From the NCBI GenBank assembly GCA_020048985.1, contig JAIFLR010000013.1, forward strand, positions 1-64,000: 64,000 nt of DNA, in the 5' to 3' direction. This document shows positions 1,237-48,844 of the stretch, piece after piece; positions within the stretch are counted from its first letter, which is position 1; each line of letters opens with the position of its first letter. The notes under the pieces are model-generated. The model made no database searches and was not told the DNA's origin. It saw only the letters and a program-made list of their open reading frames with translations. The DNA comes from Halobacteriovorax sp. Lineage in GTDB: Bacteria > Bdellovibrionota > Bacteriovoracia > Bacteriovoracales > Bacteriovoracaceae. Both the position numbers and the translations under genes were made by a program.

Positions 1237-1845
1237 ATGAAAAAACTATTCCTTATTTTAGCTCTCTCTTTTCACTCCCTAGTCTCCTTCGCCCAGAGTT
1301 TTGAACTGAGGCCCATGGCAGAATTAGTCAGTCAAATTGAAGGTTCAAAATTTACCTTTAAGGAGAAAGGACTTCTTTTTGGTTTCTCCAGTATTCAAAG
1401 CTGCATGTACGTTGCAGAAGAGATGGTCATTTTTAAAAATTACTGCTCTCCAAGGAATAATTACCCTGCTCGTGGCTACACAATCATTTCTGCGAAATTT
1501 GGGATGATTGATATTTATGAAGAGCAAATTGGTGCCATCAATAAACGAGATATTACTCAAACTGAATTCTCGCAGAATCTTGCCCCTTACCTTACTATAC
1601 CTCTGCCACTAACAAGCTTAGATAGTCTGAGTGCTGTAATGGAGACTCTTTACTCTCAGTACAATCCCGGTTGCTGGTCAACGAATTGGAGCCACTACTC
1701 TCATCTTCCAGAAGCTGCTTGCAGTCGGGCGGCCGGTGACGTCCTGGGATTTGATGTATGGAATCAAGGGACCCAGGAAATAACCGGAAATGACGAAGCG
1801 TGGGCCGGTCTTTTTCAAACCATTGAAAAACAATTAGGTTTTTAA
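1237..1845 (+). CDS. Secreted protein of unknown function
   Basis: 202 residues with a clear Sec signal peptide (MKKLFLILALSFHSLVSFAQS, cleavage likely after FA or AQ), so it is exported to the periplasm or beyond. The mature part has several Cys residues and a C-terminal segment rich in Trp and Gly. I do not recognise the family. Its 3' end overlaps the end of the opposite-strand CHAD gene by 12 nt, a tail-to-tail arrangement common in this window. Confidence 0.7.
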   Translation: MKKLFLILALSFHSLVSFAQSFELRPMAELVSQIEGSKFTFKEKGLLFGFSSIQSCMYVAEEMVIFKNYCSPRNNYPARGYTIISAKFGMIDIYEEQIGAINKRDITQTEFSQNLAPYLTIPLPLTSLDSLSAVMETLYSQYNPGCWSTNWSHYSHLPEAACSRAAGDVLGFDVWNQGTQEITGNDEAWAGLFQTIEKQLGF

Positions 1846-2514
1846 TTGTGAACAACTTATAATAAAGCTCAGAGCGGATCGATAAGTTCGATTAAATTCT
1901 TTCATAGAAGACTCTTTGTCTTTTTGGATTCTTGATTTTTTACCTTTCATTTTCTGCAGAACTTCCAGGTCATGAATATGCCCCAAGTCGTCCTGCATCC
2001 TTTGTAATCGAAGGTAAAAGTGACCGAGGGCCTCTAAACTATAACGGACTTCTTTGATAGCAATTCGGAGGTGATGCAAATCCTTCGGAGTCAGTTCCAA
2101 CTTCTGAAATTTATGAAGCTTAATATTTAACTTCCTCATCCCTCGTTTATAAGTGCTGAGGATTTTTAAATCGGAATGGCGATGGAGAAGTCTAGTATCA
2201 AAATCTTTTATAGCGTCTATTGTTCTTTTTCTTGCTGCCTTTTTTGTCTTCATCAACTTTTTAGTTTTCAGTCCATAAGTCTTTGCATTTAAAATGGCGA
2301 CATCCAGATCACGATCTTTTCCTAAAGTTATTGCGAGCTCTTTTAACTTGCGACTATTAACAACAACCGACAACCGACGAATCGTAATTCTGATCTTGTG
2401 GATGGTCTTGACCGTAGGTTTCTTGCTCGCCTTTTTGAGAAGTTTCTCAAAAATTTCCATCTGGTGATATTTGTAATTAAGCAGTGTCTTGCTCGAGACG
2501 TGAGGTCTTTTCAT
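1834..2514 (-). CDS. CHAD domain protein
   Basis: 226 residues from the ATG at 2514; a TTG at 2544 would add ten residues, and neither start has a convincing ribosome site. The protein is rich in Lys, Arg and His with paired helical repeats. The conserved His segments are TIHKIRITIRRLS in the N half and LHHLRIAIKEVRYSLEAL with MQDDLGHIHDLEVL in the C half. This matches the CHAD (conserved histidine alpha-helical) domain, which binds inorganic polyphosphate. There is no CYTH triphosphatase domain, so it is a stand-alone CHAD protein, probably cytoplasmic or granule-associated. Confidence 0.8.
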   Translation of the reverse strand: MKRPHVSSKTLLNYKYHQMEIFEKLLKKASKKPTVKTIHKIRITIRRLSVVVNSRKLKELAITLGKDRDLDVAILNAKTYGLKTKKLMKTKKAARKRTIDAIKDFDTRLLHRHSDLKILSTYKRGMRKLNIKLHKFQKLELTPKDLHHLRIAIKEVRYSLEALGHFYLRLQRMQDDLGHIHDLEVLQKMKGKKSRIQKDKESSMKEFNRTYRSALSFIISCSQLKT

Positions 2515-2635
2515 ACAAGACAAGTGTGTAGAACAAAGGCCCAAACTGTCGATGCGCTGTGAACTCTTCTCCGAAATAACAATGAGTTAGAAGATATTGG
2601 TCAAGTAATCTCGTAGGTCATCCGACAAGAACAGG

Positions 2636-3795
2636 ATGAGATTATGGCTAGTGCTTCTCACAATTACTTTTTCCCTTAATGCTGCAGCTCAAACCAGCTG
2701 CCCTTCTCTCAATCATATTTTTCTCATCCATGGCATAGGTGGGAATGCTAAAAGCTTTGGTCAAATGGAGAAGTATATTGAAACGGTTGATGAGTGTTAC
2801 CGTGTTCATTCCTTTGAGTATGACACTGGTAATAGCTCCTTAAGCACCTATGAATTCGCTGCTAGCTTTGATCAATTTCTTTCAAAGAAGATTTTAGTCA
2901 AAGAAATATCACAATTCGCGAAGTTAATCCAGTAATCTATGAACAAGTCGATGCATTCATCACTCTCTCCACACCGCATTGGGGAGCAGAAATTGCCAAT
3001 ATTGGAAAACATCTTTTTTTTACTTTGCCTGAGGGAGTAAAAAATCCCATTTCTCCATTTGGAAGGATTGAACTCAATGAGATGAGTTATGGCAGCCGCA
3101 CGATAGAAAATTTGGATTCTATTTTTTCTCAAAATTTTCGTCCGATAAATTTTAGACCTCTGGCCATTGGCGGAGTTCATAAAATCAAAAACAAGCTTAT
3201 CGGGGAAAATGATACAGTGGTGCCAGTTTATTCTTCAAGGCCTGATCATTATTTTTCTAACAATGAAATAAACGTGAATGTAAATTCGGGATTTATTCCG
3301 GCTTCCTCATTCACCAAATCAAGCCGCATCCCCTTCGTCACAGTTGCAGCGACACATTTAAAATTGGATCTGCCCGGGATAGCGACAATCCCGGAGAAAT
3401 GTTTACAAAAGAGTGGATGTGACCACCCTTCACTGCCAGTGATTATAGACCACCTTAAGGGACGCTCCATAGCAACAGTGAGTGAAGAGCTGGACCACTT
3501 CCGAAGCAGTATTCACCTAAATAATGTATCCGGGGATAAGATTGATAAAAAAGACGTTAAGATTGAAATAGTGGAAAGCCCTCATGTTTCCATACCTGTT
3601 TCTCAGAAACTAAAATGTTATAAGGGAGATGCAAAACGTAAAGAGGGGCTCGCTTTTTCATTTCATGGCCATACTAAAAAGTCTGGCGTTCAGAAAATCC
3701 GCGTTATTCTGACTTTGAAAAATAAATTTCAACGCGAACTGGAAATTCCTGTTGAAGGTGGCCATTCAACTATCATCCGTTTGAGCCTTAACTAG
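2636..3795 (+). pseudogene. Secreted alpha/beta-hydrolase lipase, broken by internal deletion and frameshift
   Basis: The first part (from ATG 2636) has a signal peptide and the lipase oxyanion-hole motif HGIGGNAKSFG, then runs to a stop at 2935. From about 2872 a second frame is open and continues to 3795. It carries STPHWGAEIAN, the Asp segment GENDTVVPVYSSR and a His segment ATHLKLDLPG, all typical of the same lipase family. Between the two parts the nucleophile elbow (GHSxGG) is absent: only about 20-30 residues lie where such lipases usually have 60 or more. The gene therefore seems to have lost its catalytic Ser segment and its frame in one event. Everything else looks well preserved. 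Confidence 0.8.
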
Positions 3796-42281: not shown

Positions 42282-42764
42282 TTAGGGTTTAATCTTCTTC
42301 ATTTCCTCGTGAACCATAGGTGGGACAAAAGGAGTAATGTCACCGTCGTGAGCATAAACTTCTTTCACCAGAGAGCTAGAGATGTAGTACAACTTTTCAC
42401 TCGTCATGAGGAAGACTGTGTCACATTCAGCATTAATCTTACGGTTCATAGACGCCATTTGAAATTCGATCTCAAAGTCACCGGTTGGACGCAGTCCTCT
42501 GACAATTGAGCTGATTTTATTCTGTCTCGCATACTCAACAATTAATCCAGACCAACTATCAACGACAACTTTGGGCTCATGGGCAAAAAGTTTTTTCAGG
42601 ACGTTGACTCTGGCTTCAGTCGACATGAAAGGTTTCTTCGTTGGTGATACGGCTACCAGCACAACTATCTCATCGAAGATTTTGACAGCTCGTTGTACGA
42701 TATCCAAATGACCATTGGTGAATGGGTCAAATGTTCCAGCATAAAGTCCGCGTTTCTTTTCCAA
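42282..42764 (-). CDS. coaD: Phosphopantetheine adenylyltransferase
   Basis: 160 residues, normal size. The nucleotidyltransferase motif TFDPFTNGHLD (His19) and the C-terminal YISSSLVKEV are diagnostic. It catalyses the fourth step of CoA synthesis (4'-phosphopantetheine plus ATP to dephospho-CoA). It lies 30 nt downstream of rsmD, an order common in bacteria. Confidence 0.98.
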   Translation of the reverse strand: MEKKRGLYAGTFDPFTNGHLDIVQRAVKIFDEIVVLVAVSPTKKPFMSTEARVNVLKKLFAHEPKVVVDSWSGLIVEYARQNKISSIVRGLRPTGDFEIEFQMASMNRKINAECDTVFLMTSEKLYYISSSLVKEVYAHDGDITPFVPPMVHEEMKKIKP

Positions 42765-42794: not shown

Positions 42795-43373
42795 CTATAC
42801 GAGTTTTCCCACCACGACAAAATGATCTCCCTGCTCCACCGTTTTGATAACCGAATGGAATGCCGCAGTGACGTCCTGAAGCTTAGGTCCCTTTAAACGA
42901 TCGGACTCCAGCCACACTTCACCTTCGAAATTTTGTCCTTTAAGTAGATCAAGAATTTCAAAATAAAGGGCATGTAGCTCAAAGGGCGGATCAAGAAAAA
43001 GTATTACGTCCTGAGTCTCTGGAAATTGATAACGCAATTCTTTTGAAACCCAATGTTTTGCATCTGAATTACTGACCACAATCGAAGCAGGGTCAAATTT
43101 GAAAGACTTTATTAGTTGTTCCTGATTTTGTTTCAAAGTCAGAAATGCCCCTCTCATTGAGTCGTTGGCAGCAACTTTCTCAGCACCACGAGATAGTGCC
43201 TCAAAGGCCATTGCTCCCGAGCCCGCGCAAAGATCCACAAACTGGTACCCCTCAAGGTTTTGTCTCCAGTCAAAGAGCTTTCTCTTAATGAGGACGGATG
43301 TTGGACGTGTGGAATCAGATCGAGGCGTAGCAAGAGGAAAACCTCTCGCTACGCCACCAAGAATTTTTATCAT
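42795..43373 (-). CDS. rsmD: 16S rRNA (guanine966-N2)-methyltransferase RsmD
   Basis: 192 residues. The N-terminal ILGGVARGFPLATP segment, SAM motif VDLCAGSGAMAFEALSRGA and catalytic DPPF (near residue 128-131) are the RsmD signature. It methylates G966 of 16S rRNA. It is the likely first or second gene of an rsmD-coaD-aminotransferase run, with the short acidic protein gene 7 nt upstream. Confidence 0.96.
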   Translation of the reverse strand: MIKILGGVARGFPLATPRSDSTRPTSVLIKRKLFDWRQNLEGYQFVDLCAGSGAMAFEALSRGAEKVAANDSMRGAFLTLKQNQEQLIKSFKFDPASIVVSNSDAKHWVSKELRYQFPETQDVILFLDPPFELHALYFEILDLLKGQNFEGEVWLESDRLKGPKLQDVTAAFHSVIKTVEQGDHFVVVGKLV

Positions 43374-43380
43374 TGAATGA

Positions 43381-43794
43381 TTATACGGCTTTTTTTAGCG
43401 ATTGTGCATCAGAGACTGGTACATTAAACGAAATACCACCATCCATCTTAATGTTTAGACCGCCCTCAGAAACCTCGAGCATGATCGTTTTGCCACCAAC
43501 TTCGAATTGAAGCTCCAGATTCAAGTCACCCTGAACCTTAAATGACATTGATGTGGATGTAGAGGTCTTTGTTTGAGTTGCTGCTGGAGTCTCTTTTTTC
43601 TCAAAAGGAAGAACTTCCGCGTCGCTTTTTGTGGCGATAGGAATTGATATTTCTTCTTCCATTTCTGCCAGCTCTTCCATGACAGATGAAGCTTCCACCG
43701 TGTCAGTTTCGTCGGCGCCATTAAAATCTTCTTCCAGAGATTCAATTTCTTTCATAATGTCTGAAAGCTCTTGATCGTTGAAGCTCTTATCCAT
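43381..43794 (-). CDS. Hypothetical acidic protein
   Basis: 137 residues with a good GGGGG-type ribosome site. The N-terminal ~55 residues are very acidic and helical (IMKEIESLEEDF, EELAEMEEE). A Thr/Ser linker follows, then a C-terminal beta-rich domain of about 55 residues (FKVQGDLNLELQFEVGGKTIMLEV). Cytoplasmic; the family is not recognised. It lies 7 nt upstream of rsmD on the same strand. Confidence 0.65.
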   Translation of the reverse strand: MDKSFNDQELSDIMKEIESLEEDFNGADETDTVEASSVMEELAEMEEEISIPIATKSDAEVLPFEKKETPAATQTKTSTSTSMSFKVQGDLNLELQFEVGGKTIMLEVSEGGLNIKMDGGISFNVPVSDAQSLKKAV

Positions 43795-43978
43795 GTCATC
43801 CCCCGTGCAAAGGTAATTTGTTTATGCTGCGTTCGTTATACGAATCTATGCTCAGTTCCTAATCGGAGCAACGCGGTAAAACTTTAGAAAAATACTCCTA
43901 TTCAGGCTCTTTTTCCATGACAAGAACACACGGATAAGTCACAATCTGGCACCCTTTTAATAATTAAATCAACGACTT

Positions 43979-46843
43979 TTGACGTACTTGGAACAAGTGA
44001 CCAGGAAGATATTTTTTGCTCAACAATGGCTTCAAAAAGATGAATCGCATGACGATTCTTTGGTACCTACTGTACCCAAGTCCACCAAAGAAATTTGTCC
44101 CATCAAAAGTCGATTCCCTACTTTCATAAACCGTCAGAAAATTGTCGCTCGCACTTTGCCCGTACTTGATGACACAAAATTTTCACCTATGAATTGCTTT
44201 GTTCCCGGCTGGAAAGGTGAATCCCTCTCTTCCAAGCACGTTGTTAAATTTGAACGATTACTTAAAACCGTTGAAGACGATATTCGCAACGAACTTCTAA
44301 AAACCAAAGATTTTCCCCGCACGATCAAGATGGGGCTCTACAACGAGTTTCTCTCTTATGCTGAAAGCCTTGGCCTGCATTTCGAAGGCCTCGATGACAT
44401 GGGTCGATTCTGGCAGCTGCTCACACCCGAGAAGCTGAGCGAAGACAAAGATTTATCTCAATTCGTTGATATCTACACTGGCCGCATAGCCACCATGACA
44501 TTTCTAAAACTACGTTTTATTGCTTCTCTCCTTGATAAATGTGGCCTCGAACTTAACGATCGGGCACTGCTCTACCCTACTTCTTTCTTGTCTCAGATAT
44601 TCAAGAAAGGCAGTCAGTCTGAACTCAATTCAAGGGCGCTTGAGAGCAATTTATACAGCTGGTATCGTCCTAACGAGGCCATGAAAGAAACGATGAAAGA
44701 ACTTCTGCTCCTTTCAAAAGACCTGGCAATTACCGAGATTATTAAAAATGTTTCGGTAAGAACTCAGGTCAAACAAGATCAAGGTAAGGTTTATTCTCAC
44801 GCCTTATCTCAAGTTAGCTTGGGGCTATTTTTAAATTCCCTTCAAATCAACTTTCCCATGTGGATTGAAACGATTGAAGGAAAAACAATTCCATCTGGAA
44901 GTCTTGAGCAAGAAGAAATCATCAGCTGTAAATACTTTGGTGATTACTTAGAATCTCTTTCCCTTTCACACTGGCTTGCCCAGGAAAACAACCAGAACTT
45001 CCGTTGGGATCAGATTCTTTGTCCAGACTTCAAAGGGCTTGAATTTATTTCAGGTAACTTCGCCAAGATCTGCAATGAGCTTCAGTTCCTTACTTTTCTG
45101 GTTAACAAAGCTGAGCATCAGCGCGAAAAACCAATTGAATACATCTGCAAAATCATGGGAGGTCACTTTCGTAATAGAAAGAACTCTCACGCCAAGCAGG
45201 GTTTATTATTAGAACATAATCCATTTTATTCTTCGACCTACGATCGAGTGGTGCTCAATCTGTGCCATTTTCCTAAGAATAATCCTCAGCACTATTTAAT
45301 GACTCAAATTCTGGAGCAGGTTAAATATTTAAAGAACGATGGATATCTTTTTGTTCTTTCAAATAAAAAACTATTCGTTCCTTCTTTGAGAGAAAGATTA
45401 GAGCCAGTTTTAAAAGAACTCAAAACAGAAGCCATCTTTGACATGGAGAATGTCAAAGGCAAAGGAGAGCTTGGCTCTTACGTCTACGTTTTCCGTAAAC
45501 GTGCTCAAGAAAGCGCATGTCAAAAACAACTTTGTTCATACTTCAGAGTTTCGGCCGATCTTACAACGTTTCAAGAGTTTTCAAGTTTAACCGAACACTT
45601 AAGAACATTCTATCTCTCACACTTAACTGAAATGCCTCCAATGGCGCAAATCGATTTCTCTGATTCATTCAGACTTGAGTATTACCAGGAAGCTTTGGTT
45701 AATGGGATGCTGATTCATTCAACCAATGAAGATTCTTCTCGCATTACTCACCCTACTTTTTTTAAAAACTTGATGAACTCTTGTGTTCCCTTGGACACGC
45801 TATTTGAAATAAAATCCATCTCATTTAATGAGAAGTTCAACCACAAAGACAATAGTTTGAACCTGGGACTAACACGAGATCACACTTACTTTGTAGTTGT
45901 AGATTTCAGAAGGTCTGAAGTTTCTCTTGAACTCCATCCAATGGACACGCTACGTTCGATCCATTCTGATTACGGTGAAACTCTCTGTAACTATTTTGAA
46001 CTTCATCCTAAGCTCCAGGGACTCAACCCAAATATTTTACGAAATTATTTCGTAACTCCAATTGGCAAGCAGGTCACAAATCTCACCTTCACGGGTGGAC
46101 CTAGTCTGGTTAAGGGATCGCTTTCTAAGTTGCTCGTACCTAAATTTATGGCCGAAACTGAAGCTCTTCCTCAAAACCTGAAGGGAGCATTTACTATCTT
46201 CGAGAAATCTGAAGAGGACTTCTTACAACTTTCTCCTCAAGCCGTATTAATGTCGTTTAACCACATTGATCAGATTGCCCGTGATGTGTTGCCTAAGCAC
46301 GCTTGCGAAATACTTTCCCATTATTCAAATCTTGAACGAACCCTCCAGTCACTTATCTGGAAAATGGATGATACGAGATACGGGCACAAAATTAGTTTTA
46401 ACAATCCGATGATCCAGGCCAAGCTGGTCCAAAAAACGACCAAACCCATGTATCCGGATAATCAAGAGATCTACCTGGAATTTGTCGAAGGCTCTTCCCC
46501 AGTCGACATCCATTTGCCTTTGACTCAAACCCAAATGAAAGTCACTCACGATGGGGACCTTAAACTTTATTCGCTAGAGCTCATCTCTAATGACAGAGTT
46601 ATTGTTCGTTTGCATGCTGAAGAGTTAATGATTCTATTTATTAACTTCCTCCTCACCCATGCTATGAATGTCTCTCTTTCAAAAATTCTTAAAGCTATTC
46701 ATGTTCCCGCTTTAAACGACCTTAAACTTATAATTGAAACCACTCAGGGTCTGAAGCAAACGTACCAAGAAGTACTGAGCAAAGTTCAGGCATCGATATT
46801 GATGGCCTTCAGCGTACACGTGAGCCCCAAGAGGACTCCGTGA
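43979..46843 (+). CDS. Large protein with degenerate N6-DNA-methylase-like region
   Basis: 954 residues from a TTG with no clear ribosome site; a GTG at 43997 is an alternative. Around residues 420-520 the order YDRVVLNLCHFPKNN, helix, YLKNDGYLFVLSNKKLFVP, LRERLEPVL, then EAIFDMENV..GELGSYVYVF parallels type I HsdM methylases. However, the catalytic NPPF/Y is replaced by NLCHF, so activity is doubtful. A later stretch (FTGGPSLVKGSLSKLLVPKF) recalls the specificity-subunit TRD. No restriction subunit is nearby. It overlaps dtd by 4 nt, so the two are co-translated. The methylase relation is inferred from pattern only. Confidence 0.7.
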   Translation: MTYLEQVTRKIFFAQQWLQKDESHDDSLVPTVPKSTKEICPIKSRFPTFINRQKIVARTLPVLDDTKFSPMNCFVPGWKGESLSSKHVVKFERLLKTVEDDIRNELLKTKDFPRTIKMGLYNEFLSYAESLGLHFEGLDDMGRFWQLLTPEKLSEDKDLSQFVDIYTGRIATMTFLKLRFIASLLDKCGLELNDRALLYPTSFLSQIFKKGSQSELNSRALESNLYSWYRPNEAMKETMKELLLLSKDLAITEIIKNVSVRTQVKQDQGKVYSHALSQVSLGLFLNSLQINFPMWIETIEGKTIPSGSLEQEEIISCKYFGDYLESLSLSHWLAQENNQNFRWDQILCPDFKGLEFISGNFAKICNELQFLTFLVNKAEHQREKPIEYICKIMGGHFRNRKNSHAKQGLLLEHNPFYSSTYDRVVLNLCHFPKNNPQHYLMTQILEQVKYLKNDGYLFVLSNKKLFVPSLRERLEPVLKELKTEAIFDMENVKGKGELGSYVYVFRKRAQESACQKQLCSYFRVSADLTTFQEFSSLTEHLRTFYLSHLTEMPPMAQIDFSDSFRLEYYQEALVNGMLIHSTNEDSSRITHPTFFKNLMNSCVPLDTLFEIKSISFNEKFNHKDNSLNLGLTRDHTYFVVVDFRRSEVSLELHPMDTLRSIHSDYGETLCNYFELHPKLQGLNPNILRNYFVTPIGKQVTNLTFTGGPSLVKGSLSKLLVPKFMAETEALPQNLKGAFTIFEKSEEDFLQLSPQAVLMSFNHIDQIARDVLPKHACEILSHYSNLERTLQSLIWKMDDTRYGHKISFNNPMIQAKLVQKTTKPMYPDNQEIYLEFVEGSSPVDIHLPLTQTQMKVTHDGDLKLYSLELISNDRVIVRLHAEELMILFINFLLTHAMNVSLSKILKAIHVPALNDLKLIIETTQGLKQTYQEVLSKVQASILMAFSVHVSPKRTP

Positions 46844-47277
46844 AGGTAGTAGTTCAAAGAGTCCAGGAAGCCGAAGTTCGGGTAGAAAATGAAACAGTTG
46901 GCGCCATAGGTGCTGGACTTCTACTTCTGGTTTGTTTTGAACAAGGTGACGACGAATCTGCCATCAATAAAAGCGTTGATAAAATAAGCAAACTCAGAAT
47001 TTTTGATGATGCCGATGGAAAAATGAATCTCGATATTCAGGCCATCAAGGGTGAAATTCTCTCGATCAGCCAGTTCACACTAAGCTGGGATGGCTCCGGC
47101 GGTCACCGCCCAAGTTTCGAAAAATCGATGCTGCCCCAGGAAGCCCGATTGAAGTACGCCTTATTTAATAGGGAGCTCAGGGCCAGAGGACACACTGTCA
47201 AAGAGGGTCAATTCGGTTCTTTTATGAAGGTGTCACTAGTCAACAATGGACCAGTGACATTTATTCTTCAGTTCTAG
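46840..47277 (+). CDS. dtd: D-aminoacyl-tRNA deacylase
   Basis: 145 residues, GTG start overlapping the TGA of the large upstream gene. MKVVVQRVQEAEV, the SQFTL motif near residue 77 and the NNGPVT motif near residue 135 are diagnostic of Dtd. It removes D-amino acids mischarged onto tRNA. Coupling to the methylase-like gene is unusual. The last 4 nt overlap the convergent membrane-protein gene. Confidence 0.98.
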   Translation: MKVVVQRVQEAEVRVENETVGAIGAGLLLLVCFEQGDDESAINKSVDKISKLRIFDDADGKMNLDIQAIKGEILSISQFTLSWDGSGGHRPSFEKSMLPQEARLKYALFNRELRARGHTVKEGQFGSFMKVSLVNNGPVTFILQF

Positions 47278-48641
47278 TTCATTAATTCGCGGGCCAGATC
47301 TTTCTTTTTACCTTTCACTACTGACACTAAATTCTTATTTGATTTTGCATCTCTAGGAACACGGTTCATAGTGAATCTAATCGCCATTCCAGTAATCGCT
47401 CCAGCGCGGTCTGTTTTATTTTCAATATGCCAGGTAGAGTTCGTCTCGTTGGCCATCTCTTTGAGAAGAATCATATTCATATCCATTGAGTCAGCGGAGA
47501 TGTTCTGATTATTCTGACTGAAATCAAGTTCCGTTGCTGTGAATGTATTTCCCGCTAGGAACAAATTGATGATCGCCTTATCAGAATGAATCTGGTTGGA
47601 AACGATAATTTTCTTCCCATCATTTCTGCGCGTAGCAAGCTTGTTGATAGCAGCATTCATCATCTGTTCAAAACCTTCAAAGGCCACTGCCAATTGAACA
47701 TCTCGCACATCACTAACATGAATCAAGTCTTTGGCATTAATATTCTGAATTGAAACCAGAACTTCTTTAAATGAAGTTTTATGCCCATCAAGGGTCTCAG
47801 GTGGTGTGAATTCTGGAATTTCTTCCTTCGTCTCAACTGTCTCAGTCTTTTCGTTTTTTCCTTCATAATAAGCCGAACGAGAAGCCATTCTCTCCAAAAG
47901 ATCACCATGATAATCTTTAAAGATTTGCGCACTCACAGGTAGCCCTTGAGTCAGAAGACCACGCTCAATAATTTGATCAACCATGGCACCCACATTGGCC
48001 TGGCCAGTCTTTAATAAGTTAAGAGCTTTCTTTTCAATCTCTTGCTGAAGTTGAATGCGATTAAATTCTTTGAGAGAAAGAATACTTAGGGAAATAACAA
48101 ACATCAAAAGTCCAAGACCCATCAACACTTCATCACTCATCTGTATTTCTCTGATGCGGGAATTAGTTGCATCAATCTCATCTACAAGATTAATTTTAAG
48201 ATTCTCCATTTGAGAAAACTTTGACGAGAGAGGATTTAAAGGAACATCCAAATTCTTACCACTCACCATTGGGCTATGAGTGCGAACAACACTTTCATGA
48301 AACCAATGAACATCTGAAATCAATTTATTAAGAGTTTCATAACCCTTGCCAATATTTTGCTTAAATGGATTGATCCCTTTAATTGTTTCATTCAGGCATT
48401 CATCAGACAGACCCATAAAACCGCGGTTCAAATAAGGTGAGTGAATATCCTTAATCATCATGGCAGTGAACGTTTGTGAGATGCGGTTAAAACAAGTGCC
48501 TACGCCCTGGTTCAAAACATTCATACGATCTAATTGATTCTGATTGGTTTGGTGATGCCAGAAAGCACCGAGAGTCATAAGAAGTCCAAGGCCACACAGC
48601 ATGAGGACTTTAGACGAAGAAACGCCAAGTAATTTTTTCAT
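47274..48641 (-). CDS. Membrane protein with a kinase-like ATPase remnant
   Basis: 455 residues from ATG 48641. TM1 is near residues 10-26 and TM2 near 165-185 (GLGLLMFVISLSILSL), with a ~135-residue helical periplasmic sensor-like loop between them. The cytoplasmic part has a coiled coil and a linker. The C-terminal ~150 residues (FEQMMNAAINKLATRR, IIVSNQIHSDKAIINLFL, MILLKEMANETNSTWHIENK) follow the order of a HATPase domain but lack H, N, G1 and G2 boxes. Probably a receptor derived from a histidine kinase that no longer phosphorylates. The call is by topology and pattern. Confidence 0.6.
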   Translation of the reverse strand: MKKLLGVSSSKVLMLCGLGLLMTLGAFWHHQTNQNQLDRMNVLNQGVGTCFNRISQTFTAMMIKDIHSPYLNRGFMGLSDECLNETIKGINPFKQNIGKGYETLNKLISDVHWFHESVVRTHSPMVSGKNLDVPLNPLSSKFSQMENLKINLVDEIDATNSRIREIQMSDEVLMGLGLLMFVISLSILSLKEFNRIQLQQEIEKKALNLLKTGQANVGAMVDQIIERGLLTQGLPVSAQIFKDYHGDLLERMASRSAYYEGKNEKTETVETKEEIPEFTPPETLDGHKTSFKEVLVSIQNINAKDLIHVSDVRDVQLAVAFEGFEQMMNAAINKLATRRNDGKKIIVSNQIHSDKAIINLFLAGNTFTATELDFSQNNQNISADSMDMNMILLKEMANETNSTWHIENKTDRAGAITGMAIRFTMNRVPRDAKSNKNLVSVVKGKKKDLARELMN

Positions 48642-48844
48642 AGTAAACAACATCCTTATTGTTCCAAAGACTGAAAATATCTAATTTTCCTCGGTTATTG
48701 TCTCTTTTTCAGTCCCTTTGAGTCAAGGTCGGAAAATTTGACCGAGTATAAAGCTCAAGTGATAGAAAATTCGTATTCGCCTATGGTACATTGCCTCTGA
48801 TCAGAAATTAGAGCTATGATCTTTGAGTACAGGAGTCCGGTCTT

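Follow-up and report, generated by a model that had tools for sequence, protein, structure and literature searches.

The window considered here is a stretch of 64,000 nucleotides (nt) from Halobacteriovorax sp. (contig JAIFLR010000013.1, positions 1 to 64,000), and the gene in question encodes a methyltransferase-like protein directly upstream of dtd, the gene for D-aminoacyl-tRNA deacylase. This protein is probably a catalytically dead N6-adenine DNA methyltransferase of restriction-modification (R-M) type origin, which combines the methyltransferase core and a specificity-like C-terminus in one chain and is kept as a core gene. It seems to represent an R-M-type enzyme that was domesticated, disarmed and retained in nearly every examined member of its class, to which predatory bacteria belong. 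The class is taken to be the Bacteriovoracia and the phylum the Bdellovibrionota, because the named records with the gene include Bacteriovorax stolpii, Halobacteriovorax marinus and many Bacteriovoracaceae metagenome-assembled genomes. The fold is known; as far as literature searches show, a dead, fused methyltransferase as a class-wide core gene has not been described. No description of this protein family was found in the literature searched, including PMC11656739 and PMC12839542. PMC11656739 names a different S-adenosylmethionine (SAM) methyltransferase, Bd1029, as a cluster specific to intraperiplasmic predators.

Fold and lost motifs

Searched by itself, the protein matches nothing significantly in Pfam, NCBIfam, PADLOC or the PDB sequences. 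Whether the query was the protein or A1, a class profile of 22 rows, the PDB sequences gave nothing below E 0.26, and for the Pfam families Eco57I and N6_Mtase no match is listed for the protein or the 22 class rows. Its AlphaFold model (mean predicted local distance difference test (pLDDT) 77.7, predicted template modelling score 0.57) consists of a Rossmann methyltransferase core and a helical N-terminal domain, that is, the predicted fold is that of a gamma-type N6-adenine DNA methyltransferase. In Foldseek the best match of the whole model is BrxX (8zek, E 2.2e-7) and 58 PDB chains lie at E ≤ 1e-3; a Vibrio methyltransferase, BpuSI, M.BseCI, HsdM and CamA are further matches. Comparison with VIA gave lmo1582 (2f8l; Z 13.2, 287 residues aligned, root mean square deviation (rmsd) 5.9), M.BseCI (Z 12.8, rmsd 11.8) and the M subunit of EcoKI (Z 11.5, rmsd 8.4). 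The initial annotation, made from the sequence of the window, had proposed structure prediction and fold search as a check and had described an HsdM-like order of motifs; the model agrees with this for the fold but not for the letters. A search of BFVD returned five matches at E ≤ 1e-3: three giant-virus proteins that carry the name adenine methyltransferase or type I specificity protein, a phage protein annotated as helicase and a protein with no functional name.

Modelled alone, residues 600–954 (numbered, as throughout, from the TTG start at 43979) reached a pLDDT of 85.4. The four best VIA rows of this part are all type I specificity subunits (HsdS; Z 8.1, 7.7, 7.2 and 7.0), with alignments spanning 243–256 residues at rmsd 7.7–9.0. 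The best of them, 1yf2 (Z 8.1), is also the chain at rank 1 in Foldseek (E 0.044). A likeness of the modelled C-terminus to specificity subunits is therefore plausible, and the specificity-like stretch seen in the initial annotation is moderately supported by VIA, less so by Foldseek.

As judged from sequence and model, motifs I and IV have been lost. The position of motif I is occupied by SCKYFGDYL with a single remaining glycine (G321), and GxG is missing there from the window protein, the aligned class rows and the aligned rows of the f8/f12 group (f labels denote families outside the class); in the class the GxG pattern matches seven times, always at residues 473–608. NLCHF, already noticed in the initial annotation in place of NPPF/Y, is found at residues 427–431 and closes the predicted strand 421–428, which is the expected position of NPPY/F. 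The merged alignment put the class loop outside the motif IV columns and the loop was placed via the predicted strand instead; for the region of motif II no reliable alignment was obtained. [NDS]PP[YFWH] is absent from motif IV in all 123 distinct members (79, 32 and 12 by group; 115 with at least 850 amino acids (aa)), and the lone SPPY in the family lies elsewhere, at residue 522 of L252. As a control, NPP[YFW] is present in 10 of the 13 PF02384 loci inspected (of 20 returned), two of the remaining three being members of the family.

Conservation among 73 class sequences is highest in the 11-residue stretches that begin at residues 589 (ITHPTFFKNLM), 459 (VLSNKKLFVPS), 326 (SLSLSHWLAQE), 568 and 364. 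The sixth starts at 431 (FPKNNPQHYLM) and is part of the former motif IV loop, which reads N-L-x3-P-K-x-N-P in the class, with N427 kept at >90 %. By this pattern of conservation, the old catalytic loop appears to have been swapped for a new fixed sequence rather than drifting. Furthermore, the signature YSWYRP of the helical N-terminal domain (residues 226–231) occurs as YSW or FSW in 47/47 aligned rows across three groups. The protein presumably no longer methylates, and a methylation-dead, DNA-binding protein is most likely.

Distribution and selection

The open reading frame (ORF) of 954 codons (43979–46843, plus strand) is intact and shares GTGA at its 3′ end with dtd, both as initially annotated. 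The listed TTG is a doubtful start: most aligned orthologues begin at the position of codon 7, here GTG 43997 with TTGGAACAA ahead of it, so that the protein probably has 948 aa.

All 36 genomes of the window's family carry the gene (among 58 genomes searched). With A1 it was found in 125 of 129 class genomes, including 73/73 good ones (at least 90 % complete, at most 5 % contaminated); the four genomes without a match are 56–88 % complete. It is usually single-copy, and apart from those in G008 and G081 (see below) doubles are pieces. For pairs with the window sequence dN/dS is saturated; the near pair L009/L010 (nonsynonymous differences pN 0.003, synonymous differences pS 0.274) gives a dN/dS of 0.009, which at sequence level demonstrates strong purifying selection. 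On the strength of this value and the long open frames across the class a chance ORF or a pseudogene was rejected; one stop is present within the matched span in eight class members. A mobile or phage gene was also rejected; neither the window protein nor profile A4 had a viral_contigs match, each scan consisting of a few peptide patterns. A housekeeping rather than a defence role, as suggested in the initial annotation, is supported by the status as class core gene, the fixed site described below and the strong purifying selection.

Relatives in the phylum

A class-only invention, first suggested by the search of 58 genomes, was overturned by members in other families. Outside the class A1 matched weakly in three f12 genomes (E 2e-5 to 7e-3), and f12 ORFs of 897–946 aa are likewise divergent from rsmD-coaD; a match in f11 (G266, E 0.02, frame of 53 aa) was taken as chance. 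A recognisable member is present in 15 of 34 coaD loci from other families; those in L163 and L174 were recognised later. Profile A3 matched 77/280 phylum genomes, 13 of which are class genomes found in reverse and 64 lie outside the class, in the twelve families f4, f5, f8, f10, f12, f13, f15, f17, f19, f20, f24 and f25. In profile-profile comparison A1 is collinear with A3 (E 4.9e-11) and A4 (E 1.1e-13), control profiles of a ~240-aa protein and of a ChaN-like protein, both encoded by neighbouring genes, giving E 0.47 and 0.46. A4 in turn matches HsdM at E 7.9e-10.

By their aligned motif I the relatives form a decay series, from an intact motif in f4/f5 to none in the class, and with such intermediates in sister families the steps of enzyme death would be readable in sequence. 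Members of f4 and f5 retain FDP[TA][MC]G[ST]GNFL; the f10 row reads FNPIAGAG, one of two f13 rows LNLCAGSG, most rows of the f8/f12 group FxPTLR[DE]G and the class SCKYFGD or similar. The f4/f5 members resemble the Eco57I/MmeI (type IIG/IIL) and TaqI-like N6 methyltransferases: L246 (f5; Eco57I E 4.2e-16, N6_Mtase 2e-9, MmeI_Mtase 1.1e-6) and L163 (f4; Eco57I E 2.6e-11) exceed the Pfam cut-offs for these families, and TaqI_C matches weakly. In contrast to these enzymes they possess (C/A)PPE instead of NPPY, no nuclease domain was recognised and the class has no significant Pfam match. A Thermus relative (E 6e-15) has LLDPACGSGTFL and FDFVVGNPPY, the counterpart of the latter in L246 being FDFVVCCPPE. 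The best plasmid-borne relative of L246 found is an N-6 DNA methylase from Thermus whose motifs are intact, directly 3′ of parA-parB (L253, NZ_AP025611.1, 1–5442).

In the tree the class and f12, f4, f13, f17 and f20 each form one clade (five of the six other families with at least two rows), so that in the sequences analysed clades follow most families. A single early capture in the phylum would follow mainly from the shared chromosomal site, as the tree is unrooted with long branches and one family, f8, is split.

Possible functions

Several observations weigh against a dead R-M-type methyltransferase with a specificity-like C-terminus that was captured once. The Z of 7–8 to HsdS falls in the range which VIA calls possibly generic, and Foldseek gave no match at E ≤ 1e-3 for residues 600–954. 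Direct profile comparison with HsdM is not significant for A1 (E 0.48) and A3 (E 0.53), so that the sequence chain to HsdM runs via A4, whose f4/f5 rows are the least diverged. No A3 match was obtained for 15 of 28 family labels, including f6, although a sample of equal size and draw holds 48 f6 genomes. In the tree f8 needs three changes, and five live methyltransferases fall within it beside f4/f5/f10/f13; long branches meet. Two full-length copies exist in G008 and G081 (contamination 2 % and 9 %). Finally, loss of motifs does not prove inactivity.

Alternatively, the protein could have remained enzymatic, as a methyltransferase whose active site is unusual and whose substrate is RNA, protein or DNA. 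The conservation of the former motif IV loop and of N427 is in line with this, and the intact motif I of f4/f5 suggests that early members could still bind SAM; nevertheless, a normal SAM site is improbable in the class and the f8/f12 group, given the missing GxG, and a surviving activity is considered unlikely. Dead paralogues often control live ones. By analogy with METTL14 and DNMT3L, which likewise have a methyltransferase fold without catalysis, the protein might regulate an active methyltransferase or serve as its structural partner. However, METTL14 and DNMT3L belong to unrelated lineages and have live partners. In the window's genome (91.6 % complete) nothing matches N6_Mtase, N6_N4_Mtase has no match over cut-off and Eco57I has a single ORF of 288 aa (26.4 bits), the remaining methyltransferase families not having been searched; a partner role is for this reason decidedly improbable.

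Little credence is given to a defence component, that is, an orphan methyltransferase of a bacteriophage exclusion (BREX) or R-M system. The nearest folds and the Pfam and NCBIfam matches of the least-diverged relatives are indeed BREX PglX, type IIG and type I enzymes: BrxX is the best match of the model, and the f4/f5 relatives match PglX of NCBIfam partially (BREX-2, 1.8e-10, far under cut-off). In the type I systems the M subunit and, plausibly, HsdS resemble the two parts of the protein, which differs from them in joining both in one chain. R-M enzymes are usually mobile and quickly lost, and it is the universal presence at a fixed site in the good class genomes which speaks against defence. 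In addition, no catalytic motif remains, the four neighbours scanned in Pfam include no restriction gene, in agreement with the initial annotation, and no restriction or BREX partner is found among the recurring neighbours in 79 class loci. A nuclease-like match of the neighbouring conserved protein of unknown function (MspI-like, 47274–48653, minus strand; Pfam E 0.0012, under cut-off) is probably chance.

For the catalytically dead methyltransferase the following course may be proposed. The ancestor would have been a type IIG/BREX/type I-like enzyme, captured once and early in the phylum, and the domesticated methyltransferase would have been silenced early by losing methylation. Through its specificity-like part and the cleft that was once catalytic, the protein may still bind nucleic acid, double-stranded DNA being the most likely, and it could act by occupying or marking sites without chemistry, alone or together with the product of its usual operon partner, the ChaN-like protein. 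Only tentatively can it be suggested that it is a methylation-free reader of DNA sites throughout the class, and patchily in the phylum, which is essential for housekeeping such as chromosome organisation or gene control and re-uses the base-flipping cleft via the P-K-x-N-P loop. Should it indeed bind DNA and leave it unmodified, the protein would be the bacterial equivalent of the dead methyltransferases of eukaryotes, and a nucleoid or regulatory protein of a new kind, approachable in cultured Bacteriovorax or Halobacteriovorax.

Chromosomal site and neighbouring genes

As far as gene order tells, the chromosomal site is fixed in the class and beyond (Table 1). Of the named class loci, 69 extend far enough upstream; rsmD is present in 67 of these and the small gene w43381 in 66. 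Outside the class rsmD is in reach at 12 of 13 loci, which were fetched by profile match alone; in f4 a few genes lie between.

Table 1 Features of the methyltransferase-like gene and its surroundings in the window
Feature	Position	Strand	Basis or remark
coaD, synteny marker	42282..42764	-	TIGR01510 E 2.1e-55
rsmD-like 16S rRNA methyltransferase gene, synteny marker	42795..43373	-	PF03602 E 4e-28; under TIGR00095 cut-off
Small protein of unknown function, divergent neighbour	43381..43794	-	Kept between rsmD and the gene in the class and several other families
Intergenic region between divergent units, presumed promoters	43795..43996	.	Gene order
Coding sequence of the methyltransferase-like protein	43997..46843	+	Listed ORF from TTG 43979; orthologues favour GTG 43997, 948 aa
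Helical N-terminal domain, residues 85-300	44231..44878	+	Model; VIA matches to type I M subunits begin at residues 73-89
Probable motif X remnant, YSHAL	44792..44806	+	YTPPLL in least-diverged relatives; alignment uncertain here
Rossmann methyltransferase core, residues 313-510, limits approximate	44915..45508	+	Model, Foldseek, VIA
Degenerate SAM-binding motif I, EIISCKYFGDYLES, G321 kept	44915..44956	+	FDPxxG[ST]GNFL in least-diverged relatives; model, merged alignment
Former catalytic motif IV loop, VLNLCHFPKNNPQ	45251..45289	+	P432, K433, N435 at least 97 % (weighted) in 73 class sequences
C-terminal part, plausibly specificity-subunit-like, residues 600-954: mixed domain, long helix, mixed domain, long helix	45776..46840	+	Model, VIA, Foldseek
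dtd, D-aminoacyl-tRNA deacylase	46840..47277	+	4-nt overlap; secondary neighbour

The dtd gene of the window is genuine (TIGR00256 161 bits; PF02580 E 4e-50), with AGAGGA directly 5′ of its GTG. In 79 named class loci the next gene downstream is a ChaN-like gene in 43, dtd in 27 (26 scored and L059 by inspection, the longest dtd frame of L059 beginning within the gene), the contig end in five and another gene in four. The overlap measures 4 nt in 22 of the 26 directly adjacent loci, and dtd comes after the ChaN-like gene in 8/43. In twelve picked class genomes dtd is found ~1.6 kilobases downstream of the gene in three and elsewhere in seven, and is undetected in two. Within the window's genus and among near relatives the overlap is genuine, and the link to dtd is secondary. 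Since dtd is distant or undetected elsewhere in the class and the ChaN-like gene is commoner as next gene, the direct overlap looks like a late arrangement arising from loss of a gene formerly in between. Its sole effect, in this genus and its near relatives, would be to set co-expression. The tRNA or RNA binding which the initial annotation had read from the overlap is hence not borne out, and in the loci read outside the class the downstream partners are an unknown ~200–260-aa protein and in some cases a ChaN-like one. That the protein is a co-translated, tRNA- or RNA-binding partner of Dtd, both acting on aminoacyl-tRNA, is the least probable of the alternatives, for which the frequent 4-nt overlap and the dtd genes nearby (past the ChaN-like gene, or ~1.6 kilobases off) would speak, but the protein persists where dtd is elsewhere or undetected, and the structural matches, of both fold and C-terminus, suggest DNA methyltransferases and DNA specificity subunits. 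In two class genomes, G060 (99 % complete) and G086 (98 % complete), TIGR00256 did not match any dtd.

The ChaN-like protein (ChaN/Tiki-like, PF04187) comprises 500–590 aa (for example L033:7805-9445, L034:7875-9506 and L178:513-2222). Its gene adjoins the methyltransferase-like gene in most class loci read and in some other families; elsewhere in the phylum it also occurs alone, and none was detected in 22 genomes belonging to the window's genus. In families outside the class the succession of the gene, a ~200–260-aa protein and the ChaN-like gene is present in f17 (L244, L250), f20 (L178, L189) and f8 (L169; with one more gene in L168), and some loci contain a short extra ORF. In f12, f15, f19 and f24 the ~240-aa protein occurs with no ChaN-like gene in reach. 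Examples of this protein directly downstream outside the class are L173:6830-7552, L177:849-1604 and L244:2185-2892. Seven such proteins scanned had no Pfam match over cut-off, the best being ATC_hydrolase (L189, E 1.9e-4), and the partner was found in 0/126 in the class, a weak negative as this search had no positive control. In an f5 genome (G039) dtd and a ChaN-like gene lie close together on opposite strands (L149:61-516 and 1486-3156), on a contig apart from that of the methyltransferase-like gene.

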